Positions 661 to 17,956 of a stretch of DNA of 31,098 bases are shown in pieces (the stretch's first letter is position 1; each line of letters opens with the position of its first letter). Origin of the DNA: a virus. The translations under genes and the position numbers were made by a program. Location: positions 1 to 31,098 of the IMG/VR virus record IMGVR_UViG_3300035682_002258; one strand, 5' to 3'. Below the pieces are notes generated by a model. The model saw only the letters and a list, made by a program, of their open reading frames with translations. It did not search any database and was not told the DNA's origin.

Positions 661-1326
661 TTAATTGATGTCAAATAAGTTATACTGGGCTACAAATTCA
701 CTAACGACGGTGACAACCTCATCATAATTTGTTACTACACTTTTATAATCAATGTCCATTGGCACTAGATCAATGTCACTTCCCAATTCTAATTTAAGTA
801 TTAAATTAGCCACATTGTCGTACTCATAATCATATACTTGGGTAGAAGTAGTAACAGCAGAAAGTATATACTGTTTAATTTTGTTATACGATAGATATCC
901 ATTTAATAAATGATGTATCTTACTATGCGATATAGTATACGGTTCAGCGACAACCTTCTGATTCTTTTTTCTATGCCAAGTGGTACTGTCGTCGGGATCC
1001 ATATACGCATAACTTAGTATGGCATCTATATAATTGATTCTAGTTAAGAAAATTATGGTGTCAAACGATTGATAGTTTATTGTTTTATACAACTCAGTTA
1101 TAGCATTACTATTGGAGTCAAAAAAATCATTACCATTAAGCTTAACGCACATACTATCGCTTTCATTGATGACTGCTATCAACGGCGGATATTCATTAAA
1201 ATTCTTATTTTTGATTCTGTTTTTTGTTATGGTGTCACCAAACGGGCGTAAATTGAATTTTTTACAGCACAAATCGTGTATCATTGTGCTTTTACTCCTA
1301 GGAGTATAAAATATTAATATTTTCAT
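661..1326 (-). CDS. divergent sulfotransferase-like protein
   Basis: The protein (221 aa) opens with a beta strand and the loop YTPRSKSTM (residues 7-15). This fits the 5'-phosphosulfate-binding loop of PAPS-dependent sulfotransferases, usually PRSGST, with the glycine replaced by lysine. A second family-like motif, FLTRINYIDAILSYAYM, supplies Arg96 and Ser105, as expected for the 3'-phosphate site. The remainder is poorly conserved. It follows the P450 by three bases and is probably cotranscribed. A clearer sulfotransferase is encoded at 26995-27864. The Gly-to-Lys change may alter or abolish PAPS binding, so the function is uncertain. Confidence 0.6.
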   Translation of the reverse strand: MKILIFYTPRSKSTMIHDLCCKKFNLRPFGDTITKNRIKNKNFNEYPPLIAVINESDSMCVKLNGNDFFDSNSNAITELYKTINYQSFDTIIFLTRINYIDAILSYAYMDPDDSTTWHRKKNQKVVAEPYTISHSKIHHLLNGYLSYNKIKQYILSAVTTSTQVYDYEYDNVANLILKLELGSDIDLVPMDIDYKSVVTNYDEVVTVVSEFVAQYNLFDIN

Positions 1327-1329
1327 CCC

Positions 1330-2469
1330 CTAAATAGTTTCCACCATCAGATTAGTTACAGAGTCTTGATTACCGGAAGAGGTAATCTGAAAGACGAATC
1401 CTGAGGGGTCTGGCGTTATTTTATATTTACCTAATGTACCTAGTAACAACTCGACCCATACTTGAAGTACCTTCTTACTAATAACGGATGCAATACAGGC
1501 GTGCATTCCATATCCAAACGCAAGGCTTCCTGCATTTTCGCGTTCTGGTAAGAATTTATCTGGGTCAGCAAACATATTAGGATCTCTGTTTGCTGCCTCT
1601 AGAGACAAAATAACCTTATCGCCCAATTTCAAGGATACATTATGCATACTAATATCTCTTGTTACCGTTCTAACTTTTCTACCTGATGAAGAATTGTACC
1701 TCAATGATTCGTTAATCAGCCCGGGAATCAATGATCTATCTTGATTTAATGTCTCAAATAGATCCTCCCTATATAGGTCTACTGCTAAAAATCCCAGAGC
1801 GCCAGACAATGATCCAACTCCAGAAATAGTTGGACCGGTAAATAATGAAATCAATGTGTCGTCTTTACTATGTGTTATGAATTCATGGTATATTCCAGGA
1901 CCAACTGACGGGACTTTATTTTTAAGCAAACTAACTATTAACTTAGTAAATTCATTGTAGTATGACTGATCTACATTGTGTGCCACAGATTGGCTAGCGT
2001 ACCGTAATATGCCAAGTACTAATCTATGAACTTCTTTTTTGCAATGTGGTAAATTCAGAATTTCTGTACTGACCCAAGCACTAGCCTCTTCTACTAAACT
2101 TGACAAGTTAAAAACTGAATTATTAACAGCCAACAACTCTGTTGACCTTTCTACAAAACAATTGACTATTCGTTGAATGTTCTCTTTGCTATATGCTTCT
2201 TTAACTATGTTTTTGAGGATACTATGCATTGGATCATCAGACGCCCCAAGTGTTCTATTGAACCGATGTGGGGATTCTTGAATAAGATTTCCGCGACCGG
2301 AGGAAAAAATATCGTGATTTTTTAATGCGTATTTTACGTCATCGTATCGGGTAAATACATATCCATTATATTTTTCACAATAATATGCAGTGTCCATTAC
2401 CTGCATTTTTTTATACATCTCAAATTTATATGAGAGCCAATCACTTGACAGGGGATTAAAAAGTTCCAT
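1330..2469 (-). CDS. cytochrome P450
   Basis: This is a full-length soluble bacterial-type P450 (379 aa, no membrane anchor). Landmarks appear in order: a C-helix region with DDPMHSILKNIV (78-89), the K-helix ExxR at Glu254-Arg257, the meander ANRDPNMFADPDKF (293-306), and the heme loop FGYGMHAC with Cys325 as thiolate ligand. The I-helix reads SGVGSLSG (216-223) where the family usually has (A/G)Gx(D/E)T, so the acid is Gly and the Thr is Ser. That could change proton delivery or reaction type. No ferredoxin or reductase gene is in the window, so electrons would come from the host. ATG is preceded by AAAGGAGC with good spacing, and this Shine-Dalgarno lies in a hairpin. The nearby ACP suggests a carrier-bound acyl substrate, by inference only. 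P450 genes are rare in phages. Confidence 0.95.
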   Translation of the reverse strand: MELFNPLSSDWLSYKFEMYKKMQVMDTAYYCEKYNGYVFTRYDDVKYALKNHDIFSSGRGNLIQESPHRFNRTLGASDDPMHSILKNIVKEAYSKENIQRIVNCFVERSTELLAVNNSVFNLSSLVEEASAWVSTEILNLPHCKKEVHRLVLGILRYASQSVAHNVDQSYYNEFTKLIVSLLKNKVPSVGPGIYHEFITHSKDDTLISLFTGPTISGVGSLSGALGFLAVDLYREDLFETLNQDRSLIPGLINESLRYNSSSGRKVRTVTRDISMHNVSLKLGDKVILSLEAANRDPNMFADPDKFLPERENAGSLAFGYGMHACIASVISKKVLQVWVELLLGTLGKYKITPDPSGFVFQITSSGNQDSVTNLMVETI

Positions 2470-2475
2470 TATTAT

Positions 2476-2492
2476 GCTCCTTTTAAAGGAGC
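2476..2492 (-). promoter_or_regulatory. hairpin enclosing the P450 ribosome binding site
   Basis: The 17-base palindrome GCTCCTTTTAAAGGAGC lies directly upstream of the P450 start. On the minus-strand mRNA it can fold as a GCTCCT/AGGAGC stem with a 5-base loop, and the 3' arm is the Shine-Dalgarno. The AUG itself stays free. Folding would hold back translation; ribosomes finishing the 104-aa gene upstream (stop at 2504) could open it. Confidence 0.5.
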
Positions 2493-2503
2493 TCCAAAAT
2501 ATT

Positions 2504-2818
2504 TTACAGTGTATTTCTTACTTCTGAGAAGGTAACGCCATTCTCAGTATTATATGCATCGCGAATAGCCCAATAGTTACTAACTACCGGATCTGCATAC
2601 ACGTCATTACAAGTCTCTTCACTATCCCAAATAAATGTAGTTGTCATGGTCAACTGGTCATCTGAATGTTCTTGTACCAATAACAATAATTTATCAGTGT
2701 GTCTGTAGGTTTCAACCCAATATGTCATAAAATGATTTGAAACGTCATCAATATCACTTACTTTAAAAAATTCTATATCAATCGACGGTCTTGCTGCGGT
2801 TCTTATAATCTGATACAT
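2504..2818 (-). CDS. small phage protein, paralogue of the 100-aa protein at 3469-3771
   Basis: The protein (104 aa) starts MYQIIRTAARPSIDIEFF and contains DDQLTMTTTFIWDS in the middle. The 100-aa product at 3469-3771 has the same plan (MYxxx..RPSxxIxFY, then DRLTLTNKMTWIS), so the two are paralogues on either side of the cupin gene. The size and alternating hydrophobic pattern would suit a small alpha/beta-barrel fold, but I cannot name a function. It has its own late-type promoter (2843-2850), and AGGA lies about 7 bases before the ATG. Confidence 0.75.
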   Translation of the reverse strand: MYQIIRTAARPSIDIEFFKVSDIDDVSNHFMTYWVETYRHTDKLLLLVQEHSDDQLTMTTTFIWDSEETCNDVYADPVVSNYWAIRDAYNTENGVTFSEVRNTL

Positions 2819-2842
2819 ATTTTTTCCTATAAAGTTATAATA

Positions 2843-2850
2843 TATTTATC
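2843..2850 (-). promoter_or_regulatory. T4-type late promoter
   Basis: The minus strand reads GATAAATA (2850-2843), one base from the T4 late consensus TATAAATA. The expected start (near 2837) gives a 19-base leader that contains AGGA just before the ATG at 2818. It would drive the 104-aa protein, the P450 and the genes down to the terminator at 432-466. Confidence 0.6.
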
Positions 2851-2857
2851 TTTAAAA

Positions 2858-3448
2858 TTAGAGATTTATAAATGCATCAGACACATCAGCATACTTATCC
2901 GGAATAATTACTGCATCTGGTTTGTGTGTTTTAATCAGACTTGTTTGAATAGGACCCTGTAACTCCCCTTTCCATTGAATGGCAGCTGAAGTCATTTCAT
3001 CAACGTTATGCCATTTTTCAAATGAAAGAATACAAAATCCATTTCCTAATAAACTACCGGTTTCTCCACCGTGATATTCACCTGATAGTATTTTCGTAGA
3101 GGTATCTCCCCATGTCCTTGAAGTATTGTTTGGTTGGCGTGGTGATAAGCTGCCTCCACCTAAATCCATAGTTATGACTTCCATTCTAGGATGCGAATGG
3201 TTACGTATATACATTTGAGGATATACTAAGTATAATTCAACTTGGTATGCCCCGTGTCTGAACAAACAAATAGCAACGGCATCATCACTACGCACCACTT
3301 CAGCGTTCCAAGGAATCATCATGGGAATTTTAGACTCCATATACCAATTTACAAAATCCTCTAATGTTTCCCAGTCAGATGGTATTTGTAAGTCTTTAAA
3401 AAAAACAGAGGAATCAAACTGTTTCCAAATTGGAGAATTCATTGACAT
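2858..3448 (-). CDS. cupin-fold protein
   Basis: The protein (196 aa) shows a cupin metal-site pattern: His84, His86 and Glu90 in RNHSHPRMEV, then a Gly-rich turn (DLGGGS), and later His126 (GEYHGG) and His147 (FEKWHNVDE), which fit the second cupin motif. Members of this fold include small-molecule dioxygenases, isomerases and binding proteins; which one this is cannot be told. It lies between the two paralogous small genes. The first ATG (3448) may not be the start: a late-type ATAAATA (3455-3449) places the transcript start near 3443, one base before the third codon, also ATG (3442). Confidence 0.65.
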   Translation of the reverse strand: MSMNSPIWKQFDSSVFFKDLQIPSDWETLEDFVNWYMESKIPMMIPWNAEVVRSDDAVAICLFRHGAYQVELYLVYPQMYIRNHSHPRMEVITMDLGGGSLSPRQPNNTSRTWGDTSTKILSGEYHGGETGSLLGNGFCILSFEKWHNVDEMTSAAIQWKGELQGPIQTSLIKTHKPDAVIIPDKYADVSDAFINL

Positions 3449-3455
3449 TATTTAT
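3449..3455 (-). promoter_or_regulatory. late-type promoter, near-leaderless for the cupin gene
   Basis: ATAAATA on the minus strand (3455-3449) directly abuts the annotated start of the cupin gene. By T4 late-promoter spacing the first transcribed base is near 3443, which leaves a one-base leader before the in-frame ATG at 3442. The short AT-rich motif may be chance. Confidence 0.4.
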
Positions 3456-3468
3456 TTGCTTTCTTCTA

Positions 3469-3771
3469 CTATAATAATATGCGTGATATAATATTATTTT
3501 CACGATTATATATTCTATTTGGAATTATCTGGGTGTCATAACAAAATGAGTCTGTCGAAAACTGTAAGAATCCTGCACGCGAAATCCATGTCATCTTATT
3601 AGTTAACGTTAACCGATCTTCTGAATAAGTTACCACTGATAGTATGAAGATACTAGTAGTAATATAGGTGTCATTGAAGTATTTCCTATAGGCAGATGAC
3701 GCTGGATTCCTTTCAGCATAAAAAGGAATCGTTACTGATGGTCTTGTTTCTTCCTTAAAAAATATGTACAC
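3469..3771 (-). CDS. small phage protein with GTG start, paralogue of the 104-aa protein
   Basis: The protein (100 aa) begins MYIFFKEETRPSVTIPFY and carries DRLTLTNKMTWIS, matching the pattern of the product of 2504-2818. The GTG start at 3771 is favoured because it aligns exactly with the MY start of the paralogue. GGACTAAATAAC (3785-3774) lies just before it, the same 12-mer found before the 43-aa ORF at 626. The function is unknown. Duplication of this small gene on both sides of the cupin suggests that the three belong together. Confidence 0.7.
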   Translation of the reverse strand: MYIFFKEETRPSVTIPFYAERNPASSAYRKYFNDTYITTSIFILSVVTYSEDRLTLTNKMTWISRAGFLQFSTDSFCYDTQIIPNRIYNRENNIISRILL

Positions 3772-3799
3772 GTGTTATTTAGTCCGTATATACGTTCAT

Positions 3800-4969
3800 T
3801 TAATTAATAGGGTGCCATACTGTTTTGCAAACATTTAGTGTATCATTGTTTCTCATAAATCGCATATCAATTTGATCTAGATAGCTTTTCCAATGATATT
3901 CCCAAGCTTGCTGTACTCGATCAAACCCGGGAACTTTGGATAGTATATTATCCCACGCCCTCATTCCCATTTTAAATCCATCCAGTACTGCGAAGGGTTT
4001 ATCTGCTTGGAATCTGTTGAAATCCCAATAAGGATAACATACTAATTTTGCTATTTCTGCAAGCTGAGAATATTCAAGATAGTGTTTTTCATAACTTTTA
4101 GTAGTTATTGGTAAACTCGGTAGAGCCTGAATTCTCTCCGACATGGCTTGTACTAAGTATGTTTTACTGGTATTAATTTCAAAATATCTTTTCATAGCCC
4201 GAGCTTGTGCGTGGGCAATCTCCGGGAAGTCGGGGCTCCAATAAAAATACTCAGTACCGTGTGGATTATCAGGGTTAGGTTGTGCCATGCAAGCGGTATC
4301 AATAAAGTAAAAGAACCATTGATTACCTTTTTTAACTATACTAGGTTTGTCTACGCCAAATATGCTTGCTACTTTTTTACCGTGTAATGCTAACTTGCCC
4401 TCAGTCGGACTAAAGGTGGTCTGTTTCTGCGACCTAGCAATGCTAGGAAGATTACTAACATCATTGGTAAAGATGTCATCATTGTAAAATTGCTCATTAA
4501 GTGTGTTTGTCCAATCACCTATTTCAATCTTAATTTCAGGATTCTTATTACCGATCCATTCTAAATCTTTTTTTATTACTAAATCCCATTCTGAATGGAA
4601 ATTGGCATTTGTTCTATCTATGGCATTGGGAGTATAAATTCCCTTATCCATTAGTCTCTCAGGCCATTGAATGTACAGATGATCTAGCGGTATACGGTTC
4701 TCTAAGAACGTCATTAATATGTTGTGGCTGTCACTTCCGCCACTATAATTAAGAATTAAATAATCATTGGTATCTCGCAGTTGCTGTGCTCTAATTCTAT
4801 ACAGTTCTTTTAATGATACGGTGTGAAAGTTAATATTACTAGGTTCTGCAAAGATTTCATCAAAAAAAACCCACTGTAAGCTAGTTTTGGTTCTACTAGC
4901 CTCAAGAATAGCTCGTAGTTTATTGGCGATAACTACTCCATTAACAACATAATGTCCATTTAATCTCAT
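3800..4969 (-). CDS. PP-loop ATP-pyrophosphatase, asparagine-synthetase-like (third copy)
   Basis: The 389-aa protein carries the PP-loop SGGSDS at residues 76-81 after a hydrophobic strand (YLILNY). This is the ATP pyrophosphate-binding signature of N-type ATP pyrophosphatases such as the synthetase domain of AsnB. There is no N-terminal glutaminase domain (no Cys2 after the start), so any amide chemistry would need free ammonia or another amine. It is longer and clearly more divergent than the PP-loop proteins at 4976-5902 and 12996-13937. It follows the 4976-5902 gene by six bases and is probably coexpressed with it. Substrate unknown; it may adenylate a carboxylate or modify RNA or a small molecule. 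Confidence 0.75.
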   Translation of the reverse strand: MRLNGHYVVNGVVIANKLRAILEASRTKTSLQWVFFDEIFAEPSNINFHTVSLKELYRIRAQQLRDTNDYLILNYSGGSDSHNILMTFLENRIPLDHLYIQWPERLMDKGIYTPNAIDRTNANFHSEWDLVIKKDLEWIGNKNPEIKIEIGDWTNTLNEQFYNDDIFTNDVSNLPSIARSQKQTTFSPTEGKLALHGKKVASIFGVDKPSIVKKGNQWFFYFIDTACMAQPNPDNPHGTEYFYWSPDFPEIAHAQARAMKRYFEINTSKTYLVQAMSERIQALPSLPITTKSYEKHYLEYSQLAEIAKLVCYPYWDFNRFQADKPFAVLDGFKMGMRAWDNILSKVPGFDRVQQAWEYHWKSYLDQIDMRFMRNNDTLNVCKTVWHPIN

Positions 4970-4975
4970 TCTTCA

Positions 4976-5902
4976 CTAGGCCTCATACTCAAATCCGGCT
5001 ATTTCCATCCAAAGCTCGTCCACAGTTCTATCTACTAGATGCACATAATGAGATCCCGAGTACTTTTTTTGAAGGAATAACGCAAATTCATTTATCAAAC
5101 TATCTATTTTTTCAAAACCTGTTTTTTTCTGTCTATCAATCATGTCCGGGTATACTTCCCGATAGCCAATAAGCTTCGTAGAGTTTGTGCCTAACTTACC
5201 ATAGTATTCATCATTAATTAGTTTTTTAAACCAAGTAAGGTTTGTATGGGCCAATACTAGACCCGGTGACCATTTTAAAAATTGAACTACCGCCGGCTTA
5301 TCTAGATGTATAGCATATTTTTCCCATCCAATGAACGTTTCTACGTCTCTGAATTTCCAGAGACCGGGTTGAGAGTAGTCATTAGTTAGACGTACCCAAT
5401 AAGGATCTCCCTCTCCCAAGACCGGAAAACCATCATCGATCTCTAAAAATTTACAATATGGCAGGGCTCTAGGTCTGTCTATTTGTGCCATCTCAGAGAT
5501 AGATTCGGCGTCATTTTCATAAAATTTTGTTAAATTAAAATCAATAATAGTATACGGTGTATTTAACAACGAACAAATAGTTACTGCATAACTAACATCA
5601 TATATGTTATAATCATTTTCATAACGTACGATAAAGACTTTTGGATTAGCACCTATTCCCAAATAAGAACGTAATACGAGTTCACTATCAGCTCCGCCAC
5701 TAAAAAAAATACTAGGCTGCAATCCAGGGTAATGATCCATTGTGCTTTGGGCAGCGATCAATAACTCTTCTTTATATGACCGAATCAGTTTATCTGTTTT
5801 ATGATAGATAGTTTTAAATGGTTCGTTAGCGGTCTGCCGGCCATATGGTAGATCGTTGCCATATTGCCATTGATGCCAATTGTGTTCGCATAGATGTATC
5901 AT
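4976..5902 (-). CDS. PP-loop ATP-pyrophosphatase, asparagine-synthetase-like (second copy)
   Basis: The protein (308 aa) has SGGADSELVLRSY at residues 68-80, a PP-loop, followed by KVFIVRYENDYNIYD. The 313-aa protein at 12996-13937 has SGGTDSEIVLRA and then RVVFIKFTNDYNVDD at the same spacing, so the two are paralogues. No glutaminase domain is present. Its ATG overlaps the stop of the radical SAM gene (ATGA), a sign of translational coupling and perhaps of a shared pathway. A role in ATP-dependent amide or ester formation on a carboxylate is inferred from family only. Confidence 0.8.
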   Translation of the reverse strand: MIHLCEHNWHQWQYGNDLPYGRQTANEPFKTIYHKTDKLIRSYKEELLIAAQSTMDHYPGLQPSIFFSGGADSELVLRSYLGIGANPKVFIVRYENDYNIYDVSYAVTICSLLNTPYTIIDFNLTKFYENDAESISEMAQIDRPRALPYCKFLEIDDGFPVLGEGDPYWVRLTNDYSQPGLWKFRDVETFIGWEKYAIHLDKPAVVQFLKWSPGLVLAHTNLTWFKKLINDEYYGKLGTNSTKLIGYREVYPDMIDRQKKTGFEKIDSLINEFALFLQKKYSGSHYVHLVDRTVDELWMEIAGFEYEA

Positions 5903-7371
5903 CTTAAATTTTTAATATCTCGGGATAAGTTTAGCATACTAGTTACATAAGTTTCACACTCTTGATTACTTAACAGTCCCAAATTATATTTAGATTCTAA
6001 TTCTGTTCTTGATAGAGTTATTATGTCAGACTCCGGTATACCTAATCTACGAACATAATTATACGAAAATCCAGCAAATTTACATTTCGGGTGCTTCTTT
6101 GATTTTTCCATTATGGTTTCGGCAATTTGATAACAATGGGCATATGATAATCCTGTATTTTTATTAAACCAGCCGAAATCGTCTACTTCATAACCATATT
6201 TTTCGTATGTTAGATCAAACTCAGAATAAAAAGTGTTATTGAATCGATTGGGAGGGGTTATTCCCAGTGCGCTAATATGCCAAGAGTCCAAATAATTTCT
6301 GTCTGAAGATAGAAATTCATCAAACTCCTGTAAAGTATCGAATGTATCATAGGGTAACCCTAGAATAAACCCTGACGATATCAGTATGTCCTTAAAGGCA
6401 TTCTGTTTTAATTCCCTTATATACTCCAGTTGTGTATACGGTTCTACACCTTTTCCTATTGCTTTTGCTGATTGGTGGTTGATAGTCTCTATTCCAAACA
6501 TAGCAGAGCGAAGACCAGATGCTTTTAAATATTCTATTGATTCAGGAAATCTCATCAATAAGTCTAGGCGTAGATAACTTGAAAAGTGTATCTGAAATTT
6601 AAGTTTAGAAAATACGGTATCGTGTAAATATTTTAACTTGTCTAGGCTATCGTTGTAGGTGTCATCTGTGAAGGTATAATGTGTTATTCCAAACTTATCA
6701 TAGTTATAATTCAACTCATCTAGCAATATTTCTCCGTGCTTGACCCAATCACCCTTTGTTTTTCCGTTTAACGGAAATGCACAAAATTTACATTTAAAAA
6801 TACATCCCCTACTTATTTCGATAGGAGGGGCGTCTAATGATTGTACTAAATCTTCTTTCACATATCGGATTTGGCTAGAAGAGAACTCTTTAAATTCAGT
6901 TCCTTGAACTAAGCTAGTAGTAAATTCTAAGTTAGATAATTTTTTTGTGGAGCACCATTTTGTAAAGTCAACAATCTCTTTATCACTATAACCTTTGAAA
7001 ATAGTAACCCCGTGTCTTTCCAACGGAAAGTATCTAGATCCGCCCGCAATTATTTTTATATCGGGATTTAATGTGCGTATAAACGCGAGAAATGCCTCTA
7101 GCTTGGGACTTGTCTCACGTTTTGAACGAAAATTCAATCCAAATATCTTATCAAAGAACGAAGTACTAAAGCCTACCCACAGTGTAGTTTCAGTAACTAC
7201 ATTCGATAGGATTTCTGCGATTTGATCTAGTTTGCTTACTCGTTCAAATGCTCCCATATCTAAGCACATTACCGAATAATCGTGCTTTCTTAATTCTGAC
7301 GCAATTCTAAAGACCCCACCGTGTTTTTGTAACGGCATCATATTACTGCCGTATAGTAATATACAATTCAT
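5899..7371 (-). CDS. B12-binding-type radical SAM enzyme
   Basis: The protein (490 aa) has a Rossmann-like N-terminal part (about 1-140, with GGSRYFPLERHG near 110-121) typical of the cobalamin-binding domain in B12-dependent radical SAM proteins, then the cluster motif CIFKCKFC (Cys190, Cys194, Cys197), which binds the 4Fe-4S cluster and S-adenosylmethionine. Later segments with HFSSYLRLDLL and SAMFGIETINHQSAK fit the barrel strands of the same family. The canonical DxHxxG cobalamin loop is not obvious, so cobalamin binding is uncertain. Family members methylate, cyclise or rearrange unactivated carbons. It overlaps the stop of the desaturase upstream and the start of the PP-loop gene downstream by ATGA, which implies one coupled unit. 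Confidence 0.85.
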   Translation of the reverse strand: MNCILLYGSNMMPLQKHGGVFRIASELRKHDYSVMCLDMGAFERVSKLDQIAEILSNVVTETTLWVGFSTSFFDKIFGLNFRSKRETSPKLEAFLAFIRTLNPDIKIIAGGSRYFPLERHGVTIFKGYSDKEIVDFTKWCSTKKLSNLEFTTSLVQGTEFKEFSSSQIRYVKEDLVQSLDAPPIEISRGCIFKCKFCAFPLNGKTKGDWVKHGEILLDELNYNYDKFGITHYTFTDDTYNDSLDKLKYLHDTVFSKLKFQIHFSSYLRLDLLMRFPESIEYLKASGLRSAMFGIETINHQSAKAIGKGVEPYTQLEYIRELKQNAFKDILISSGFILGLPYDTFDTLQEFDEFLSSDRNYLDSWHISALGITPPNRFNNTFYSEFDLTYEKYGYEVDDFGWFNKNTGLSYAHCYQIAETIMEKSKKHPKCKFAGFSYNYVRRLGIPESDIITLSRTELESKYNLGLLSNQECETYVTSMLNLSRDIKNLR

Positions 7372-8150
7372 GTTTTAATTATTTTAATGATTAATCCAGA
7401 AATGTCAAATTCCCACCATTTTTGTGTGTAGGTATAATTTTTAGGAAATCTATGATGATTGTTATGCCAGGCCTCACCCCAGCTTGGAATAGCCCATAGC
7501 CAATTGTTTGCTGAGTGATCATTCAAGTTATAACTACGGTAGCCTCCCCACCAAGTTGGTTTGTGTCCAACATAGTTCACAACATTGCTCATTATCCCGG
7601 TTAATGATGCTGGTGCCAAGTGTGCGAACACTACTAACCAAAATCCACCAATCATGAACAATAAAAGACTATACCCTGCTAAGATTACAAAATAATACCT
7701 ATGTAGGAATTGATGGAACTTGTCTGTAACTAACGCTCTCATACGCCATTTAGTATCAGCATCAACTTCATTTACATAATCAAGGGTAAAGATTCTAAGA
7801 CCTTTGTGTATTGGACTATGCGGGTCATCTACCTGATCGCTCTTCAAGTGATGATTGATATGGATAGCTACCCAAGCTAGCGGGCTTCCTGTTCCAGCAA
7901 AGCATCCAATCACAGACAACACTCTAGTCAGTAATGTATAGGTTTTGTAACTGCTATGTGTCAATCTTCTATGATACGTAACTACAATTCCTAAACACCC
8001 ATATAAAAAATAACCTGCAAAAGTGAGCAATACCGCATTAATTGACACCCCGTAGATACATAGTGCAATAATAGTACCTAACAACGATAATATCATAAAT
8101 GATTGTACACCTTTAGTACTGGATGTAGTGAATGTAGTGAATGTGTGCAT
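7368..8150 (-). CDS. membrane fatty-acid desaturase (copy A)
   Basis: The protein (260 aa) is hydrophobic with about four membrane segments and has all three histidine boxes of acyl desaturases: HRRLTH (60-65), HINHH (97-101) and HNNHH (229-233), plus DPHSP after the second box as in Delta9-type enzymes. These residues bind the di-iron centre that removes hydrogens from an acyl chain. Desaturase boxes of the same kind occur in acyl-CoA, acyl-ACP and polyyne-forming enzymes, so carrier and position are not determined. Stop and start overlap the radical SAM gene (ATGA). A late-type ATAAATA stands five bases before the ATG. Electrons would come from host redox proteins. Confidence 0.93.
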   Translation of the reverse strand: MHTFTTFTTSSTKGVQSFMILSLLGTIIALCIYGVSINAVLLTFAGYFLYGCLGIVVTYHRRLTHSSYKTYTLLTRVLSVIGCFAGTGSPLAWVAIHINHHLKSDQVDDPHSPIHKGLRIFTLDYVNEVDADTKWRMRALVTDKFHQFLHRYYFVILAGYSLLLFMIGGFWLVVFAHLAPASLTGIMSNVVNYVGHKPTWWGGYRSYNLNDHSANNWLWAIPSWGEAWHNNHHRFPKNYTYTQKWWEFDISGLIIKIIKT

Positions 8151-8155
8151 ATATG

Positions 8156-8162
8156 TATTTAT
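8156..8162 (-). promoter_or_regulatory. late-type promoter, leaderless for desaturase A
   Basis: ATAAATA (8162-8156, minus strand) is followed by five bases and then the ATG at 8150. With T4 late spacing the A of the ATG would be the first transcribed base. No Shine-Dalgarno lies between. The same arrangement is seen before desaturase B. Confidence 0.5.
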
Positions 8163-8917
8163 TATTTTCTAATTACGTTTGCCAGAGTTACCACCGGATC
8201 AAACTCATATTTGCGCACTTTGGTAGATAAGTCGGCTGCATTAGCGTGATGATTGTTATGCCAGGCGTCGCCCCAGATAAATGGCCATAGCCAAATATTG
8301 TTAGTACTATTATCCTTTGTGTCAAAGTTTCTGTATCCACTAGTGTGTGAATAATAGTTAAAAGCTTTTTGACTTAACTGTATCAAGAACACCGGTAGAA
8401 TCCACACAAAATATAATAGATTTAAATTTATTACTCCCAGCAATAGAACAAAAACTAAAATAATCAAAAAATAATATTTGTTAATTTTCAATTGAATTGG
8501 CTTCATCAAGTCTTTAACTATAAAATAATTCATATCTCCGCTGAGATGTTTTTTAACGTGTTTGAATCCAAATAGTTTAAATCCCAAATACTTAGGACTG
8601 TGTGGATCTTTGGGAGTGTCTGAATATGCGTGATGAATTCTATGAATATACACCCATCCAATTGGACTGCCCCTGCCTGATAAAATCGCAATCAATGTGC
8701 ATATCCATTTTATAAACGCATATTTAAATTCGAATGAATGGTGCGAGTAATAACGGTGAAAAGTTAGGCTTATGCCTAAAATGCTATAAATATAAAAACT
8801 AGCAACCAGTATAGCTATGTTAGGACCGGTGAAGTCTGCCCAGAATATTCCAAATAACGAGGCAATTCCAGTTACTAACTGTACTTTAGGTATTGTTTGA
8901 GCGCTAGCTGAGAACAT
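8162..8917 (-). CDS. membrane fatty-acid desaturase (copy B)
   Basis: The protein (251 aa) has the histidine boxes HRYYSH (54-59), HRIHH (92-96) and HNNHH (220-224), with DPHSP after the second and a further His191 in NYYSHTSG, and several hydrophobic membrane spans. It is thus a complete di-iron acyl desaturase. It is clearly related to copy A downstream but too different to be a recent duplicate. It is the first gene leftwards from a divergent promoter, and it appears leaderless: the late motif at 8930-8923 places the start of the message at the ATG. No ribosome binding site is visible. Confidence 0.93.
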   Translation of the reverse strand: MFSASAQTIPKVQLVTGIASLFGIFWADFTGPNIAILVASFYIYSILGISLTFHRYYSHHSFEFKYAFIKWICTLIAILSGRGSPIGWVYIHRIHHAYSDTPKDPHSPKYLGFKLFGFKHVKKHLSGDMNYFIVKDLMKPIQLKINKYYFLIILVFVLLLGVINLNLLYFVWILPVFLIQLSQKAFNYYSHTSGYRNFDTKDNSTNNIWLWPFIWGDAWHNNHHANAADLSTKVRKYEFDPVVTLANVIRK

Positions 8918-8930: not shown

Positions 8931-8988
8931 TACAATTAGGTCCAAAGCTAAAAATCACTAAGTTAAGTTGAATAACCCGGTATATAGT

Positions 8989-9591
8989 ATGCACTCCAGA
9001 GAATTAACCATAAATGACATTGAAGATATAAAAAGTTGTATATTTCATCATACCACGATATACGGAGTTCCAATAGATCATTCTAGCCTGTTACAAAAGT
9101 TGCAAAATATGTTAACAGTTGGTAGAGTGTATGGTTGCTATGACAACAATATATGTGTAGGCATTTCCACCCAACATTTTTGGAAAATTATTCCTATTTG
9201 GATTTTTTCAAATGTATATGTCAAGAACAGTAAGTCTACTTTAAAATTAACCGATTATTATGCTGAAGTTTGTCTTTCGATGATGGCAGCGGGCATTAAG
9301 TATGCAGAAACTAAAGAGTACTTTGAATTCTATTACGTAGTACGTGACAGCATTTCAACTTCAAGAAAAAAGAACGTTAAAAAAATTATTGAAACGGTAA
9401 ATCCTTCTTTATTCTTAGAGAGATATGAGATCGAGAATATTCATTTCTTATCCAATTTAGCAGACATTAAATGGGATTACATTCGCGAAATAATCGGGGA
9501 TGTCGGAATTAAAACTTTATCTAGCCAAAATAACAAAACGTTAGTTATACGTCGGGGTCGTTTAAGTAGGGCGGCAAGAGAAATAAATTAA
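8989..9591 (+). CDS. GNAT-like acyltransferase
   Basis: The product from ATG 8989 is 200 aa: MHSRELTINDIEDIKSCIF, then RVYGCYDNNICVGIST, and AGIKYAETKEYFEFYYVV. This order (acceptor helix, strand with VG, helix, strand) fits an N-acetyltransferase fold, but a clear acyl-CoA loop (Q/RxxGxG/A) is not visible. A TTG at 8968 would add seven residues; the ATG is preferred because the ELTxxDIEDI opening is typical of the family. No Shine-Dalgarno is evident at either. It lies with the SDR gene on the plus strand, opposite to the rest of the island. The substrate is unknown, and it could instead be an inactive relative. Confidence 0.55.
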   Translation: MHSRELTINDIEDIKSCIFHHTTIYGVPIDHSSLLQKLQNMLTVGRVYGCYDNNICVGISTQHFWKIIPIWIFSNVYVKNSKSTLKLTDYYAEVCLSMMAAGIKYAETKEYFEFYYVVRDSISTSRKKNVKKIIETVNPSLFLERYEIENIHFLSNLADIKWDYIREIIGDVGIKTLSSQNNKTLVIRRGRLSRAAREIN

Positions 9592-9606
9592 TAGAGAAGA
9601 TAAAGA

Positions 9607-10269
9607 ATGACTAAACCAATTATGTTAATAACTGGATCAAGCCGCGGCGTTGGTCTAGCCTGCGCCCAACATTTTAATGATTCTTACTCTATTGTGGGAG
9701 TTGCAAGAACACCTGGAGAATTTGTAACTGAACTCGGAGACATAACTGATCCTGTTTTTAGAGAAATGTTAGTTGAAAAATACACACCAAAGGTATTCAT
9801 TAATAATGCTGGTGTTGCTGGCAGCAATTTTGATGCGATGTATAGTACTAACATAGAAGCGGCAGGATTTTTATTATTAAATTTTTATAAAAAGATGCTA
9901 TGGGGACATATAATCAATGTATCTAGCGTGTCTGCTAACATATCCGGACGTCATGCAACTAGCCTCAGTGAGTTAACCTACAAAGCATCCAAAGTTTTTT
10001 TAAAAAATCTAAGCAACAACCTATCAAATAAAAGAGCAAAACCACTAGTCATAACCAGCTTAGAACCAGACTACATATATACAGACATGATCGCAGCGGT
10101 CAGCTCTCGGCCTCCGCCAGATGAAAATTATACCAATTACAAATTCAACTCGTACACTCCCATGCAACCAGAGTACATTGCACAGACAATTGAATGGATT
10201 ATATCACAGCCACCCTGGGTTTGCATTAAATCATTAGAAATCAGCAACGCTTACGAACTCCGTCAATAA
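9607..10269 (+). CDS. short-chain dehydrogenase/reductase (SDR)
   Basis: The protein (220 aa) is a classical SDR. It has the nucleotide-binding turn TGSSRGVG (9-16), the structural NNAG (66-69), a catalytic serine in NVSSVS (105-110) and the active-site YKASK (Tyr125, Lys129). It would reduce or oxidise an alcohol or ketone with NAD(P)H. In a cluster with an acyl carrier protein, a 3-ketoacyl-ACP reductase-like role is possible but not shown. AGAGAAGATAAAG precedes the ATG. Its 3' end overlaps the end of the convergent TauD gene by seven bases, and no terminator separates them, so the two transcripts would be mutually antisense. Confidence 0.9.
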   Translation: MTKPIMLITGSSRGVGLACAQHFNDSYSIVGVARTPGEFVTELGDITDPVFREMLVEKYTPKVFINNAGVAGSNFDAMYSTNIEAAGFLLLNFYKKMLWGHIINVSSVSANISGRHATSLSELTYKASKVFLKNLSNNLSNKRAKPLVITSLEPDYIYTDMIAAVSSRPPPDENYTNYKFNSYTPMQPEYIAQTIEWIISQPPWVCIKSLEISNAYELRQ

Positions 10270-11081
10270 AGATTTGCAGAAAGAACTCGAAATCCTACTC
10301 TAGTACTAGGATGGTAATCCCATATTGCTTGATGCTGTGTGCCAAAATTATCCCACCATGCAATCGTATTAGGTGTCCATTTAAATCTGCAAGAGAATCG
10401 AGGATTAAGTATAGTATAAAAAAGCTTTGACAAAATATGATTACTTTCTACTACTGAAAGCTCTGGGATTCCTATAGTAAATCCTTCATTAACATTTATG
10501 AACTTTTTTCCTGTTTCAGGTATAGTAGCAATGATTGGATGGGAAGCACATTGCGGCCGACCCATTTGGTCAACCGATGATGTAGGGGGCCATACCATTT
10601 TTGCGCGGCTTGCGCCAGGCGACATATGCATGGCATACAATGGTGCCATTATTAGCTTTTCAGTGTCACTTAATGATTCGTAAGCTGCAACAGTATTAAC
10701 AAATACAGTGTCACCACCGACGTCCGGACATTCTGTCACATACAACATAGAAGTACGCGGTGGATGTTTTACAGAAGTCCGATCTGCGTGTAGTACTCTA
10801 CCCTCTACAGTGAGAAATGTAGTATTCTCATCTGCAACGAAATGTCCAATAAGATGATTGTTATTGTATTTAGGTTGTGTAGTATGTAAAAAAATATCAC
10901 CGAATTGCCGTATTACGGTTGGTAAATATTCAGGCGCCAGTTGTTGATCTCTGAAAAATAGCACGTGATTCTCCAGCAGTGCATTTTTTAAATCTGCGTT
11001 TTGCTGCACAGTTAGCGGATTAGCCAGATCGATTCCCGATATTTCTGCACCAATAGTATGTGTTAATTTAGTAATTTTCAT
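10263..11081 (-). CDS. TauD/TfdA-family Fe(II)/2-oxoglutarate dioxygenase
   Basis: The protein (272 aa) has the length and order of TauD enzymes: HxD as His98-Ala-Asp100 in RVLHADRTS, VGGDTVFVN afterwards, and the distal TQHQAIWDY with His250, followed by Arg261 and Arg265 for 2-oxoglutarate. The family hydroxylates, desaturates or decarboxylates small carboxylates. Relatives act on carrier-bound fatty acids in isonitrile lipopeptide pathways, which is suggestive because an ACP is in this operon. AGGA about 10 bases before the ATG is the ribosome site, inside the end of the upstream gene. It is the last gene of the coupled run that starts at 14697. Confidence 0.93.
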   Translation of the reverse strand: MKITKLTHTIGAEISGIDLANPLTVQQNADLKNALLENHVLFFRDQQLAPEYLPTVIRQFGDIFLHTTQPKYNNNHLIGHFVADENTTFLTVEGRVLHADRTSVKHPPRTSMLYVTECPDVGGDTVFVNTVAAYESLSDTEKLIMAPLYAMHMSPGASRAKMVWPPTSSVDQMGRPQCASHPIIATIPETGKKFINVNEGFTIGIPELSVVESNHILSKLFYTILNPRFSCRFKWTPNTIAWWDNFGTQHQAIWDYHPSTRVGFRVLSANLY

Positions 11082-11082
11082 T

Positions 11083-11640
11083 CTAAAATCCTAGTTTTTC
11101 TATCAAATTATCCATTGGAATATCCCATTGAAATTGCAGTATTGTTCTTTTAGCGTTGTGTAGTCGTCCATCGACTGAATGAATTTCGCTTGTATTTAAA
11201 AAATACGCTTCATTTTCAATTGCAGTAAAAGTATCTACTAATGTTAAATCAGCTCTTACATACCCCAATGTTGTCGCTTCATATTGAGAACTACCGTAAT
11301 TATATTTTACCTGACTTAGGCGTCTAGCATTTTCCTTTGGTTGCCAAAAATTGGTTGCCAAGCCATGAGGTTTAATATAATAATTCATACTAGTTAGAGT
11401 GTGATCATCTATGTGCGGTCGTATTTGAGCATTTACCTGTACTAGATGGATATATTTCGGCGGTATCTTAAAAACCGATGCAAAAATGTTGTTTAAATAT
11501 GTTAGATCAGCTATCTGAAACATCACAAATGTGTATCCATACGGTGTGTATCCATACTCAAAAAGCATCTGCCCTTTAAGTTTGTCTAAATCAAGGTCTT
11601 GCCCTATATTTAAATTGACCTTTTTATAATAAGTAGTCAT
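11083..11640 (-). CDS. small Fe(II)/2-oxoglutarate-oxygenase-like protein
   Basis: The protein (185 aa) shows HxD (His76, Asp78 in IRPHIDDHT), then LNTSEIHSVDG with His154, and Arg165 in KRTILQFQW. These give the two-His-one-carboxylate site and the cosubstrate arginine on a double-stranded beta-helix of about the right length. It resembles the small hydroxylase-like oxygenases found in phages more than TauD. ATGA overlap with the desaturase gene upstream and two bases to TauD downstream indicate coupling. The substrate is unknown. Two oxygenases of different subfamilies side by side suggest successive oxidations. Confidence 0.7.
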   Translation of the reverse strand: MTTYYKKVNLNIGQDLDLDKLKGQMLFEYGYTPYGYTFVMFQIADLTYLNNIFASVFKIPPKYIHLVQVNAQIRPHIDDHTLTSMNYYIKPHGLATNFWQPKENARRLSQVKYNYGSSQYEATTLGYVRADLTLVDTFTAIENEAYFLNTSEIHSVDGRLHNAKRTILQFQWDIPMDNLIEKLGF

Positions 11641-12434
11641 TTTAAGAATGGTCTAAAAATGTTGCACGGGTCAAATTCCCACCATTTGCCACTTATTCCA
11701 GAGCCAAAATCATATTCTGCCGGTGCATAGTGATGATTATTATGCCAACCTTGACCCCATGCCAGATATCCCAAGAATGGATTGTTTTGTGATTGGTCTT
11801 TTGTTTCAAAATTTCTATACCCAAACCAACCCCTAACGTGACCAAATACATTGACCAAGTTATCTTGTGTTGATCCTATTAAGGTTACTAACCAAAATGC
11901 ACTCAGTGCTAATTTCCAATCAAATAATGCGACGATAGCCGGAACTCCCCATAATATGGTAATACTATATTTGTGAAAGAAGAGATGATTTGATTTCCGT
12001 AGTAAATCAACCGCATACTTGATATTAATGGGACTGTTTTTTTCGGTAACTTTAAAATACCATCCCACAAAGGCAGTTTTCTTGTCGTATGCTACTGGAC
12101 TATGAATATCTTTTTTTGTATCCGAATGTGGATGATGATATCCTCGATGCATTGCTGTCCAAAATATGCTACCACCTTGTCCTGCAAATGTCGCAAATAG
12201 TAGAATAACATTTTCTTTCCAAGTTGGAATTTGATGTGTTTTATGACTGAATACCCTATGATACCCTACAGCAATTCCTAACCCACATACTAACACCCAC
12301 ATAATGAATGTTGCGCAGAGGTAGTATATCGGGATAATTCCGGAAATGAGCATCACAATGGTAGCCAGACCAAAAATCCAGGCTGGAACAAATTGAAACC
12401 AAAATGATTTGGATACTGAAGTAAGATATTTCAT
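11637..12434 (-). CDS. membrane fatty-acid desaturase (copy C)
   Basis: The protein (265 aa) has several membrane segments and histidine boxes HRVFSH (59-64), HRGYHH (96-101) and HNNHH (231-235). The second box is HxxxHH, where copies A and B have HxxHH, but it still offers the needed histidines; DIHSP follows as in Delta9 desaturases. NVFGHVRGWFGYRN matches the loop with an extra His seen in A and B. It is coupled by ATGA overlaps to the GNAT-like gene upstream and the oxygenase downstream. Being in the same coupled run as the acyl carrier protein, it is the best candidate for an ACP-linked desaturase. Confidence 0.92.
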   Translation of the reverse strand: MKYLTSVSKSFWFQFVPAWIFGLATIVMLISGIIPIYYLCATFIMWVLVCGLGIAVGYHRVFSHKTHQIPTWKENVILLFATFAGQGGSIFWTAMHRGYHHPHSDTKKDIHSPVAYDKKTAFVGWYFKVTEKNSPINIKYAVDLLRKSNHLFFHKYSITILWGVPAIVALFDWKLALSAFWLVTLIGSTQDNLVNVFGHVRGWFGYRNFETKDQSQNNPFLGYLAWGQGWHNNHHYAPAEYDFGSGISGKWWEFDPCNIFRPFLK

Positions 12435-13021
12435 AAATTGCCGCCTAGCATTAACGGTTGTCTGTATTCTTGGTGTAAATAATTACATCTTACTATCGAA
12501 TCATCCGGCAATAACAATCTCTTATATAATAATTCCCAAGCATTTATATAGAAACATTTATTTTTCGCCGGTACTACGTACTCATCAAAATATCCATAAC
12601 GAGTATTATTGTACTTACTCCAATGGAATCGACGTAGCAACTTAGTGTGTTTGCTATGTGTCAATGTGTAAAACTTCAATCTACCATTAGACTCATTGTA
12701 TTTTATAACTTCATCTAACACTTCTCTTAATAAGTTGTTGTTGCCGGTGCTTCTATATAAAGTATAGAACCAACTTGGTTCCTCGACACTCTCATAGAAT
12801 GATATTAAAGCTTTTACTATTCCATCTTCAACATATCCAAATGAATGATAATTATTAAGATCGCTTAAATAGTTGGCACAAAATATGTCATAAGTTAACG
12901 CATTCAACCCCGTGTTTTCAACTTGATATATTTTAGCACTGTCAACACCCATATATTTTGAGTGATTAAAAATGTTCCTAACTGCAATCGTATGTTCACT
13001 GGTTAATTTTACAACCGGCAT
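12431..13021 (-). CDS. GNAT-like protein
   Basis: From ATG 13021 the product is 196 aa: MPVVKLTSEHTIAVRNIFNH, then YHSFGYVEDGIVKALISFY, and LLREVLDEVIKYNESNGRLKFYTLT. This suits an acyltransferase fold of the GNAT type but lacks a clear acyl-CoA signature. The upstream ATG at 13057 is possible; 13021 is preferred because GGAGAAAAGT lies directly before it. The gene overlaps the end of the PP-loop gene by 26 bases and the start of desaturase C by ATGA, so it is embedded in the coupled run. It may transfer an acyl group from the ACP, by analogy with ACP-using GNATs; this is inference. Confidence 0.55.
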   Translation of the reverse strand: MPVVKLTSEHTIAVRNIFNHSKYMGVDSAKIYQVENTGLNALTYDIFCANYLSDLNNYHSFGYVEDGIVKALISFYESVEEPSWFYTLYRSTGNNNLLREVLDEVIKYNESNGRLKFYTLTHSKHTKLLRRFHWSKYNNTRYGYFDEYVVPAKNKCFYINAWELLYKRLLLPDDSIVRCNYLHQEYRQPLMLGGNL

Positions 13022-13937
13022 ACTTTTCTCCAAATAGTTGAGTATAAACTTCATCAATAAAGATTCCGTCTAAACTAGATTCTAATCTTTTCATGTGACT
13101 GAGATACAAGGTGTTATACGTTTCACCATTAAAACCCATCAATTTTTCATAGCCATGTGTTTTTACTTTATCTAAGATAGAAGGCATTAGCTCAGCAAGC
13201 ACTTCATTTTTAGTGCTAACACTAGATGTCTTGTAGTTAAATCGATCTGTAATTAACCATTGAATTTTAGGATGAGCCAAATAATACCCCATCATTTCCG
13301 GTGTGTAGCTAAACCATTCATTCACTAACGGCACATTAAATTTTAAACTAAATCGCATTGCACTGGCATCTTCATTTTCTCTGAAACAATAATACCATTT
13401 GCCGCCAACTGGCGATGTATGTCTACGTAGCATCATTTCACCTCCCATAACTGCAGGTAATTGCATTTTTCGAATATGATGATACACTGTGAGATATGCC
13501 ATTTGTCTGCATTGAATATCGGCAGCAAATTCATATGCTTGCCCACTGTGATAAAACTCTTTTACATCAAAGTCAATAGATTCTAATCTCAATCCCAAGT
13601 CATCCGTAATCCGCTTAGCCATTATGAAATCATCTACATTATAATCATTGGTAAATTTAATGAAAACAACTCTAGGAATTATACCTATATGTTTGAATGC
13701 CCTTAGCACTATTTCACTATCGGTACCACCGCTGAACATTACTACAAAATCATTACCGTATTCTTTACTTATTAACTCTGCAACTCTATATTGCTCTTGC
13801 AGCCAATTGCTTGTTTTATAGTAGTCTGTGTCTATTTTACCAATAGATACTTTAAATTTTTCATATGGATACTCTCGTATACCAAATAATCGATCACCAA
13901 TGGTGTACCTTAGGTGATTGTTTAATGTGAAATTCAT
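12996..13937 (-). CDS. PP-loop ATP-pyrophosphatase, asparagine-synthetase-like (first copy)
   Basis: The protein (313 aa) has the PP-loop SGGTDS at 69-74 (VVMFSGGTDSEIVLRAF) and FTNDYNVDD after the next strand. The conserved stretches match the 308-aa protein at 4976-5902. It lacks a glutaminase domain. Its ATG overlaps the ACP stop (ATGA), and this tight pairing suggests that it works with the carrier, for example activating a carboxylate with ATP or joining an acyl group to an amine. None of this is proven, and tRNA-modifying enzymes share the loop. No adenylating AMP ligase is visible, so this enzyme is a candidate for the missing activation step. Confidence 0.82.
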   Translation of the reverse strand: MNFTLNNHLRYTIGDRLFGIREYPYEKFKVSIGKIDTDYYKTSNWLQEQYRVAELISKEYGNDFVVMFSGGTDSEIVLRAFKHIGIIPRVVFIKFTNDYNVDDFIMAKRITDDLGLRLESIDFDVKEFYHSGQAYEFAADIQCRQMAYLTVYHHIRKMQLPAVMGGEMMLRRHTSPVGGKWYYCFRENEDASAMRFSLKFNVPLVNEWFSYTPEMMGYYLAHPKIQWLITDRFNYKTSSVSTKNEVLAELMPSILDKVKTHGYEKLMGFNGETYNTLYLSHMKRLESSLDGIFIDEVYTQLFGEKYAGCKINQ

Positions 13938-14152
13938 GCCATAATAGCCATCAGATCACCGATAGTGCTTACAGTAGCTTCGTTGGTTATTTCAGTAGAG
14001 GTTATTTCTTCATAATAAATCTGCAACTCTACAACATCCAATGAATCTAGGCCGATATCTAATAGAACATCCGTCGGAGACAATGTAATATTTTTCTTAA
14101 AGATTTGTAATACATACTCTTCAATAAATTTAATTTTTTCTTGGTCTGTCAT
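13934..14152 (-). CDS. acyl carrier protein
   Basis: The protein (72 aa) is acidic and helical, with the phosphopantetheine site GLDSLDVVEL; the serine is residue 37. The length and position of the serine match a free-standing type II ACP. A phosphopantetheinyl transferase is not in the window, so the host's would have to act. ATGA overlaps join it to the GNAT gene upstream and the PP-loop gene downstream. A dedicated ACP in the middle of a run with desaturases and oxygenases is the strongest sign that the island builds or modifies a carrier-bound acyl chain. A host-ACP mimic that diverts lipid synthesis is an alternative. Confidence 0.93.
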   Translation of the reverse strand: MTDQEKIKFIEEYVLQIFKKNITLSPTDVLLDIGLDSLDVVELQIYYEEITSTEITNEATVSTIGDLMAIMA

Positions 14153-14697
14153 AAAGTAGTCCTATCTAATTCAATCACATACTGCTCTGTATAGTATATA
14201 TTCTTTTTCCCAATCGGTTTGAACTTTCTATAGATATCAGGCCAATCATTGAACATAACTGTGCGTTTACCTTCGTGTGCTCTAATGAACCATTGATATA
14301 TTGCACTATTATATGAGTTAGCAGTGATATACAGGTGCTGATAGTGAGTGGTATTTTCAATAATTTTAGGCAGTATATATTCTGCCATAAAGTATTTAGT
14401 ACGGTATTTTGGCATTATATAGGCTCTAGTAAGGGCAAGTGCTACAGTATGATCTAAGTCATATTCATTGTACCCGGCACTGCACACGTATTCACCATTA
14501 TCTTCTAACACATAGTAGCAACCTTTCAGGTATCGGCCGGTGGAATCATTCAAAATATAAAAAATATTAGCGGGATCGCGGGAGTGATCCGGATGATAAT
14601 TAGTAAACAGATTTGCATCCGTTATTCCTGCCAGAGAGGTTTGTAACATTTTCATTACAACCTCGTTAGATGCATCGTGAATCTGATGTAATTGCAT
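14149..14697 (-). CDS. GNAT-family acyltransferase-like protein
   Basis: The protein (182 aa) has a GNAT-like middle: YLKGCYYVLEDNGEYVCSAGY followed by ALALTRAYIMPKYRTKYFMA, where the strand plus RxxYRxxxxM region resembles the acyl-CoA loop and helix, and then YQHLYITANSYNSAIYQWF for the last strand and helix. Its stop overlaps the ACP start, so it may load or unload the carrier. Upstream lies a 20-base spacer with the palindrome CCGCCCGGCGG and only a weak GG-rich ribosome site. Aquatic phages carry many GNAT proteins of unknown substrate, so the link to the ACP rests on gene order alone. Confidence 0.6.
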   Translation of the reverse strand: MQLHQIHDASNEVVMKMLQTSLAGITDANLFTNYHPDHSRDPANIFYILNDSTGRYLKGCYYVLEDNGEYVCSAGYNEYDLDHTVALALTRAYIMPKYRTKYFMAEYILPKIIENTTHYQHLYITANSYNSAIYQWFIRAHEGKRTVMFNDWPDIYRKFKPIGKKNIYYTEQYVIELDRTTL

Positions 14698-17910: not shown

Positions 17911-17956
17911 TTTACTTCCTTTCTTAGGTTATGACAGGTATTAATTCATACTAATC

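Follow-up and report, generated by a model that had tools for sequence, protein, structure and literature searches.

Why would a phage carry an acyl carrier protein (ACP) alongside three membrane desaturases, a set of oxygenases and several enzymes resembling asparagine synthetase? The question is raised by IMG/VR virus record IMGVR_UViG_3300035682_002258, whose 31,098 bases constitute the window analysed here, and in which the genes concerned form an island at positions 661-14697. The enzyme set listed in an initial annotation of this DNA was present with its catalytic motifs intact, comprising the ACP, three desaturases, a cytochrome P450, a TauD-family and a second 2-oxoglutarate (2OG) oxygenase, a short-chain dehydrogenase (SDR), a radical S-adenosylmethionine (SAM) enzyme and three PP-loop enzymes (PP1 to PP3). 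The answer that we favour, with confidence a little short of even, is a modular pathway in which a borrowed acyl chain would be desaturated and oxidised on the phage ACP and joined to an amine. The class of the ligase PP3, the GNAT acyltransferases, the conserved serine of the ACP, and the AcpS proteins, acyl-AMP ligases and desaturases of related phages together point to such a carrier-bound chain, modified and then coupled to an amine.

Module A, the ordered core of the island, reads gnat3-ACP-PP3-gnat2-des3 and is followed in several relatives by a 2OG-type gene. In the window its five genes lie on the minus strand and encode the GNAT acyltransferase gnat3 (14149-14697), the ACP (13934-14152), the ligase PP3 (12996-13937), the core GNAT acyltransferase gnat2 (12431-13021) and the core desaturase des3 (11637-12434). 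Searching the PP-loop alignment alone against IMG/VR yielded 162 confirmed loci, the best 78 of which were retained and, after removal of a duplicate (L102), 77 analysed; L172, L223, L230 and L231, in which no complete seed gene was called, were dropped, leaving 73 PP-loop-seeded loci. A gnat2-family gene directly followed the PP-loop gene in 69 of the 70 loci with enough downstream sequence, a desaturase was encoded on the same strand no more than 2.5 kb away in 62 of the 66 where this could be read, and 44 of the 73 loci had gnat3 no more than 1.8 kb upstream. When loci were grouped by shared 30-residue stretches, the corresponding figures were 24/25, 21/24 and 19/27. The order of Module A plus the TauD and SDR genes is kept in L088, at 41-73% identity over eight genes. 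A second recurring module, B (des2-des1-radical SAM-PP2-PP1), is reordered or has extra genes in L003, L007, L015 and L022. Recurrence of the gene set in related phages, suggested as a check by the initial annotation, was therefore observed.

The core genes also diverge together. Across 22 loci the divergence of the PP-loop, gnat2 and desaturase genes was correlated (Spearman 0.86, 0.89 and 0.77; 0/2000 permutations each), and the same three correlations were 0.53, 0.81 and 0.55 in 15 closer loci (1/2000 permutations each). Comparison of the window with L086, L088 or L003 gave dN/dS values of 0.07-0.35 in 11 of 13 cases, dS being saturated in two; these ratios are approximate, since dS is above 1 in most comparisons, and the island genes are judged from these sequence comparisons to be under purifying selection. 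Ordered recurrence, correlated divergence and selection together favour a functional island, as had been proposed, over unrelated single acquisitions.

The fold of PP3 was predicted with high confidence (AlphaFold pLDDT 91) and is of the asparagine synthetase type by both Foldseek and structural alignment, the top fits being human ASNS (Z 15.4) and beta-lactam synthetase (Z 14.7). Asparagine, beta-lactam and carbapenam synthetases aligned with Z 12.8-15.4 over 238-260 residues, whereas hydroxyamidotransferase (Z 11.3) and LarE (Z 10.7) fitted less well. With 313 amino acids, against about 490-520 for two-domain chains, and its PP-loop at residue 69, PP3 has no glutaminase domain, and the model identifies it as a predicted stand-alone asparagine/beta-lactam-synthetase domain, belonging to the amide-forming synthetase class. 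The SGGxDS motif is intact in PP1, PP2 and PP3. Among 22 PP3 relatives, QueC was the commonest Pfam family (13/22, weakly) and Asn_synthase was matched by 11; MnmA and TilS occur among the fold matches. A tRNA-type PP-loop function was considered for PP3 and is less likely, as judged from the ranking of structural Z scores.

Three GNAT-like proteins had been named in the initial annotation, two of which hold up: gnat2 by its GNAT fold (Z 14.8 over 153 residues to 3g8w), and gnat3 by PF00583 matches in 9 of 22 relatives (none in the window's own copy) together with a PDB GNAT match at 9e-4. The third, gnat1 (8968-9591, plus strand), a member of a family of 29 open reading frames (ORFs) in 25 loci, has no Pfam match and is unconfirmed. 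The gnat2 reading frame opens at a TTG at 13057, and its translation probably begins at the ATG at 13021, a position derived from the gene overlap, where most relatives start. No convincing kinship emerged between the gnat2 and gnat3 profiles. The OlsB family (PF13444) was unmatched by gnat2 (22 members), gnat3 (22 members) and gnat1, and FeeM is absent among the GNAT fold matches listed, which excludes nothing. The two features of FeeL/FeeM-type synthesis, a GNAT fold and an ACP, are both present, the acyl donor being conjectural.

The carrier protein scored 20.3 bits against PF00550, just below the cut-off of 20.8, and 6e-6 against TIGR00517, likewise below cut-off; the serine of its DSL motif is kept in all 30 distinct sequences, the window's included. 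Activation and acyl supply were followed in 32 related contigs with island parts (up to 524 kb), some near-identical and two belonging to the window's own phage; most are fragments, so absences are weak. AcpS (PF01648, above cut-off) was found in two of the 32, in the phages that carry L026 and L033. In L273 the AcpS gene shares four bases with a desaturase gene and has on its other side the ACP, one gene off, and a second desaturase; the AcpS gene of L274 is separated from a desaturase gene by two bases. The statement that no AMP ligase is visible holds for the window, with no PF00501 match among the 20 proteins encoded between 661 and 15239, but not for its relatives: acyl-AMP ligases occur in 5/32 contigs, three of which (L003, L114 and the phage of L008) have the gene inside or next to the island and two of which (those of L096 and L232) have it at a distance. 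A fatty-acid hydroxylase in L026, a Rieske protein in L003 and a nitronate monooxygenase in L022 also count in favour of the pathway; Pfam TctC was matched in L003 too, and a CoA-transferase in L150, a MAG contig. No chain-building enzyme had been noticed either, in agreement with a ketosynthase count of 0/32 (controls 14/14).

Each of the three window desaturases has three histidine boxes and a PF00487 match (des1, 4e-14; des2, 4e-17; des3, 5e-10), from which a stearoyl-CoA/DesC-type activity is predicted; in a profile comparison the desaturases found stearoyl-CoA desaturase 4ymk at 7e-27. FA_desaturase was present in 31 of the 32 related contigs, as expected from how they were chosen. In a tree built by a quick method from 81 rows (74 taken from viral loci and 7 from metagenome-assembled genome (MAG) loci, with rows under 200 amino acids and duplicates excluded), des3 falls in a 30-row clade (support 100), 24 members of which adjoin gnat2, des1 (7368-8150, minus strand) in a 7-row clade (support 100), five members of which adjoin a radical SAM gene, and des2 (8162-8917, minus strand) in a separate 7-row clade (support 97). 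The L053 island has eight desaturases, on which the tree and a separate FA_desaturase search agree; seven fall into different groups with other phages, in some of which Bdellovibrionales or a further MAG also appear, and the eighth was left unplaced. Several of these placements involve long branches; long branches meet in the tree, three L053 rows among them, so its deep joins are unsure. The desaturases thus appear, on their sequences, to represent old and separate clades, and recent tandem duplication is unsupported by the tree.

In the pathway that we favour, host or phage AcpS would convert the phage ACP to holo-ACP, and the carrier would be loaded with an acyl chain taken from the lipid metabolism of the host, a phage acyl-AMP ligase activating the chain in some relatives. 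Several membrane desaturases of differing regiochemistry could then insert double or possibly triple bonds, the P450, TauD and 2OG enzymes might oxidise the chain or head group, and the radical SAM enzyme would add a further modification. The PP3-type ligase and the GNATs would finally form amide bonds, giving an acyl amide (an N-acyl amino acid, an aminolipid or similar). A single product shared by the enzymes, attachment of the chain to the ACP, differing regiochemistry among the desaturases and the amide nature of the product are all inferences; the product could be either a membrane aminolipid or a diffusible metabolite.

Several observations weigh against this pathway. The ACP gene lies just upstream of the core in only 26/73 loci (8/27 groups), so it is either not always needed or located elsewhere. 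The island at L036:1567-15003 comprises five genes of the PP2/PP3 type and two PP1 genes, and no desaturase was found on the 166 kb of its contig. Neither a thioesterase nor an electron donor such as rubredoxin was matched in Pfam among the 20 window proteins. The structures closest to gnat2 are mostly acetyltransferases, and the solved desaturases closest to those of the island act on acyl-CoA. Of 13 Bdellovibrio-type loci read, L144 alone holds the whole set.

Among the alternatives, membrane remodelling fares best, although we consider it unlikely: the desaturases would act on host phospholipids, while the ACP, GNAT and ligase would make a phosphorus-free aminolipid or alter fluidity. The resemblance of the island desaturases to stearoyl-CoA desaturase agrees with it. 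In the literature, single phage desaturases are interpreted as membrane modifiers (PMC7300359, PMC7678222), and aminolipids are described as made by an N-acyltransferase from 3-hydroxyacyl-ACP (PMC11631085). However, a PlsC-type acyltransferase (PF01553) was found in 0/32 related contigs, mostly fragments (controls 10/14), although a host enzyme could serve; the GNATs lack the OlsB match noted above; and eight distinct desaturases plus a P450 seem beyond the needs of fluidity.

Somewhat less likely again is surface chemistry, in which the island would belong to the host-recognition hypervariable region of T4-like phages and modify either host lipopolysaccharide (LPS) or a glycan of the virion. 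By eye, the L273 and L274 islands abut large tail- or virion-like proteins, and glycosyltransferase-like genes lie near those of L026 and L033. A comparable set in Pelagibacter phage Mosig, annotated as desaturase, aminotransferase, taurine dioxygenase, methylase, N-acetyltransferase and Asp/Arg hydroxylase, adjoins tail-fibre genes, and the pelagimyophage hypervariable region has LPS genes and radical SAM cassettes (PMC7029224). Yet there is no glycosyltransferase among the 20 window proteins, and desaturases of the stearoyl-CoA type are expected to need hydrocarbon chains.

It is improbable that the genes are unrelated cargo of a hypervariable region, sharing no pathway. Much of the accessory content does vary from island to island. 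With the radical SAM enzyme as seed (best 80 of 301 confirmed loci), a desaturase lay within 6 kb in 18/25 loci at 40% identity or more and in only 5/55 more distant ones, so the radical SAM family extends much more widely than the island. Against unrelated cargo stand the order of the core, its co-divergence (rho 0.77-0.89) and selection, and the side-by-side placement of AcpS, ACP and desaturases. Nucleic-acid hypermodification, suggested by the likeness of the PP-loop, radical SAM, GNAT and 2OG enzymes to tRNA-modifying sets, by the QueC, MnmA and TilS matches of PP3 and by a tRNA-Ser gene at 24-113, at the left end of the window, is the least credible alternative, since PP3 ranks with the amide-forming synthetases and an ACP with membrane desaturases does not fit.

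In the phage of L008, TctC-, TctB- and TctA-like genes, named by eye, stand in a row beside two PP1 genes (L275:518-3021) and seem to make up a complete tripartite tricarboxylate transporter carried by a phage. Next to another island (L114:2326-4192) are a receptor of the TRAP type and a protein resembling beta-keto-acid-cleavage enzymes, also recognised by eye.

The carriers of the island appear to include phages of T4 type. The Gp23 capsid family was found in 11 of the 32 related contigs, over nearly full length in nine, and terminase in six; both occur together on the 524 kb L120 contig. Gp23 is absent from the two contigs sharing the window's island, and the window, a fragment, was not searched for it. 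In 50,697 phage records, PP2, PP3 and the radical SAM enzyme had no relative (PP1 and ACP were not searched there), and des1 and TauD matched three records each, all below 35% identity. In the record named Acinetobacter phage MD-2021a (L272, CAKLQH020000002), the stretch read contains trpB, trpC, btuB, baeSR and aidB and resembles a bacterial chromosome, not a phage.

A search of 84,980 species genomes gave 81 stretches with a motif match and 19 confirmed loci, 13 of them with Bdellovibrio-type titles; in the stretches read, a desaturase occurred in five of the 13 and an ACP in one. L144, on a 413 kb Bdellovibrionales contig, is a bacterial counterpart that counts in favour of the pathway: it has genes for two radical SAM enzymes, a PP-loop protein, two desaturases, gnat2, an ACP and an SDR, together with a piece of gnat3 and a transketolase split between genes (L144:15919-17702). 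A PP-loop profile match was found in 70 of 368 genomes of the Bdellovibrionales' phylum, at E 1e-20 or better in 24, the neighbourhoods being read in short stretches. L146, L150 and L153 could represent phage sequence that was binned into MAGs. A broader reading, which we hold more tentatively than the pathway itself, is that lytic T4-like and jumbo phages run a carrier-dependent synthesis of acyl amides with polyunsaturated or acetylenic chains, a natural product or membrane lipid class not known from any organism, from interchangeable modules, some with their own AcpS and acyl-AMP ligase, and that some predatory Bdellovibrionales make related molecules.

The rest of the island consists largely of modifying enzymes and small proteins, on the minus strand unless stated. 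From the left end, a 221-amino-acid protein (661-1326), possibly a sulfotransferase-like P-loop protein (TPRSKST, by eye), has no Pfam or PHROG match, and is followed by the P450 (1330-2469; PF00067 3.6e-15; best PDB chain 8fbc, 9e-31), which has the ExxR and FGYGMHAC motifs. Two small paralogues (2504-2818 and 3469-3771; self-comparison E 4e-7) belong to a family common to many islands (50 ORFs in 41 loci, own copies counted), and between them lies a 196-amino-acid protein, cupin-like by eye, with no Pfam match (2858-3448; 7 ORFs in 6 loci). PP1 (3800-4969; SGGSDS; 59 ORFs in 42 loci) is distant kin of PP2 and PP3 (hhalign against the PP3 profile 93%, E 2.6e-7) and matches no PP-loop family in Pfam apart from ThiI, once and weakly; PP2 (4976-5902; SGGADS) is 28% identical to PP3. 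The radical SAM enzyme (5899-7371; PF04055 2e-14; CIFKCKFC) is closest to B12-dependent groups, with NCBIfam matches to PhpK (7.6e-18) and HpnJ (3e-13), both far under cut-off, and PDB matches to AprD4 (5e-8) and TokK (4e-5); no B12 domain was matched in Pfam. The SDR (9607-10269, plus strand; PF00106 7e-13) has TGxxxGxG and YxxxK. TauD (10263-11081; PF02668 4e-45; PDB TauD 6e-42) fits taurine dioxygenase far better than ScoE, and ScoE-like isonitrile synthesis was rejected. The second 2OG/Fe oxygenase-like protein (11083-11640), without a Pfam match, keeps HxD and the distal H..R in a family of 104 ORFs in 60 loci. ATGA overlaps, said earlier to join much of the island, were read at six junctions (PP2-radical SAM, radical SAM-des1, 2OG-des3, des3-gnat2, PP3-ACP and ACP-gnat3).

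The flank to the right is of phage type. The genes h173 and h106 (14718-15556, minus strand) adjoin the island in near relatives as well, followed by a NifU-like Fe-S scaffold (16032-16412, minus strand; phrog_8429 3.5e-39); an endolysin and ribonucleotide reductase were also matched in PHROG, and a PAAR-like protein and glutaredoxin recognised by eye. The lone plus-strand flank gene (21590-22291) is GIY-YIG-like by eye, with a weak PHROG endonuclease match, and a sulfotransferase gene (26995-27864; PF13469 3.7e-14) adjoins nrdA. Among the 15 matches listed, NrdA was closest to Xanthomonas phage X1 (58.8%) and to Stenotrophomonas phages. The suspected VrlC-like virion proteins at 18000-19802 and 19818-21206 had no match in phage records. 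An Rfam scan of the window recovered the tRNA alone, and repeats are short, the best inside the island being the histidine-box codons common to the three desaturases.

Near relatives share the flank nrdA-nrdB-grx-PAAR-h462-h600-lysin-NifU-h106, whole or in part, and so hold the island at one genomic place with varying content; other phages hold it elsewhere. It extends beyond the window's left edge, L001 having a further HxD-type gene at its 17739-18296. The whole island is also present on IMGVR_UViG_3300042863_001387 and 3300046000_007076 at 95-100% protein identity, two shorter contigs (L083, L084) join its right-hand part to the flank, and the core-flank join occurs in diverged relatives. 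Misassembly of a bacterial cluster with a phage, raised as a concern at the outset, is rejected because other contigs (L082-L085 among the loci) carry identical joins.

One earlier proposal, that the product is made late in infection, was unsupported. The 31 kb contain a single copy of TATAAATA, the T4 late-promoter consensus, where 5.84 would be expected by chance, and the sole site lies inside des2, upstream of the two plus-strand genes only. Its rarity across 1-31098 may reflect avoidance. Sites resembling sigma-70 promoters (88; chance 78.5, sd 9.1) and terminators (12; chance 9.0, sd 3.5) offered nothing usable.

No description of this gene set appeared among the ranked matches from the open-access PMC literature, subscription papers and preprints being outside that scope. 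To our knowledge the core (asparagine-synthetase-type ligase, GNAT and desaturase, with or without ACP) matches no known cluster type, so its product may be new chemistry. The island genes are small and complete enough to be expressed, which makes the question directly testable.

Several known systems share parts of the island. Single desaturase genes were reportedly described in cyanophages by Roitman in 2018. Single stearoyl-CoA-type genes are also present in phages from the Arctic (PMC7300359) and Lake Baikal (PMC7678222); the island desaturases are of the same type, but comprise several clades ordered with an ACP, a ligase and GNATs. Rhodobacteraceae prophages likewise carry an ACP, which accompanies the fabF and fabG of chain elongation (PMC8224337), whereas no ketosynthase was found in the island family. 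Freshwater pelagimyophages carry fabF plus a desaturase, and the pelagimyophage hypervariable region (PMC7029224), with Mosig, resembles the island in its T4-like setting and in having desaturase, TauD, 2OG-type and GNAT genes near tail fibres; Mosig differs in that none of the profiles for the PP-loop enzymes, ACP and radical SAM enzyme found a match in the 24.5 kb read.

Closer in chemistry, ornithine-lipid and N-acyl amino acid synthesis (OlsB, FeeM, OlsH) joins chain and amine in acyl-ACP- or ATP-dependent reactions (PMC11631085, PMC8762209, PMC12493201); the island would share this joining, but has a desaturase in its core and no OlsB- or PlsC-family match. Asparagine synthetase B and beta-lactam synthetase share the synthetase-domain fold and PP-loop with PP3, which differs in its length and single domain. 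Polyyne clusters combine jamABC with two desaturases, a thioesterase and a rubredoxin, the last two being replaced by a P450 in 10 actinobacterial clusters (PMC8406139). The earlier comparison with a polyyne-type core stands, by gene content, for the ACP and the three membrane desaturases, and the window also has a P450; it fails for the ligase, thioesterase and rubredoxin, in place of which the window has an amide-forming ligase and GNATs. Phages are known for single metabolic genes; here a recurrent, ordered and selected multi-enzyme set comes with its own carrier protein and, if the pathway proposed here is right, phages build a small molecule or lipid of their own.

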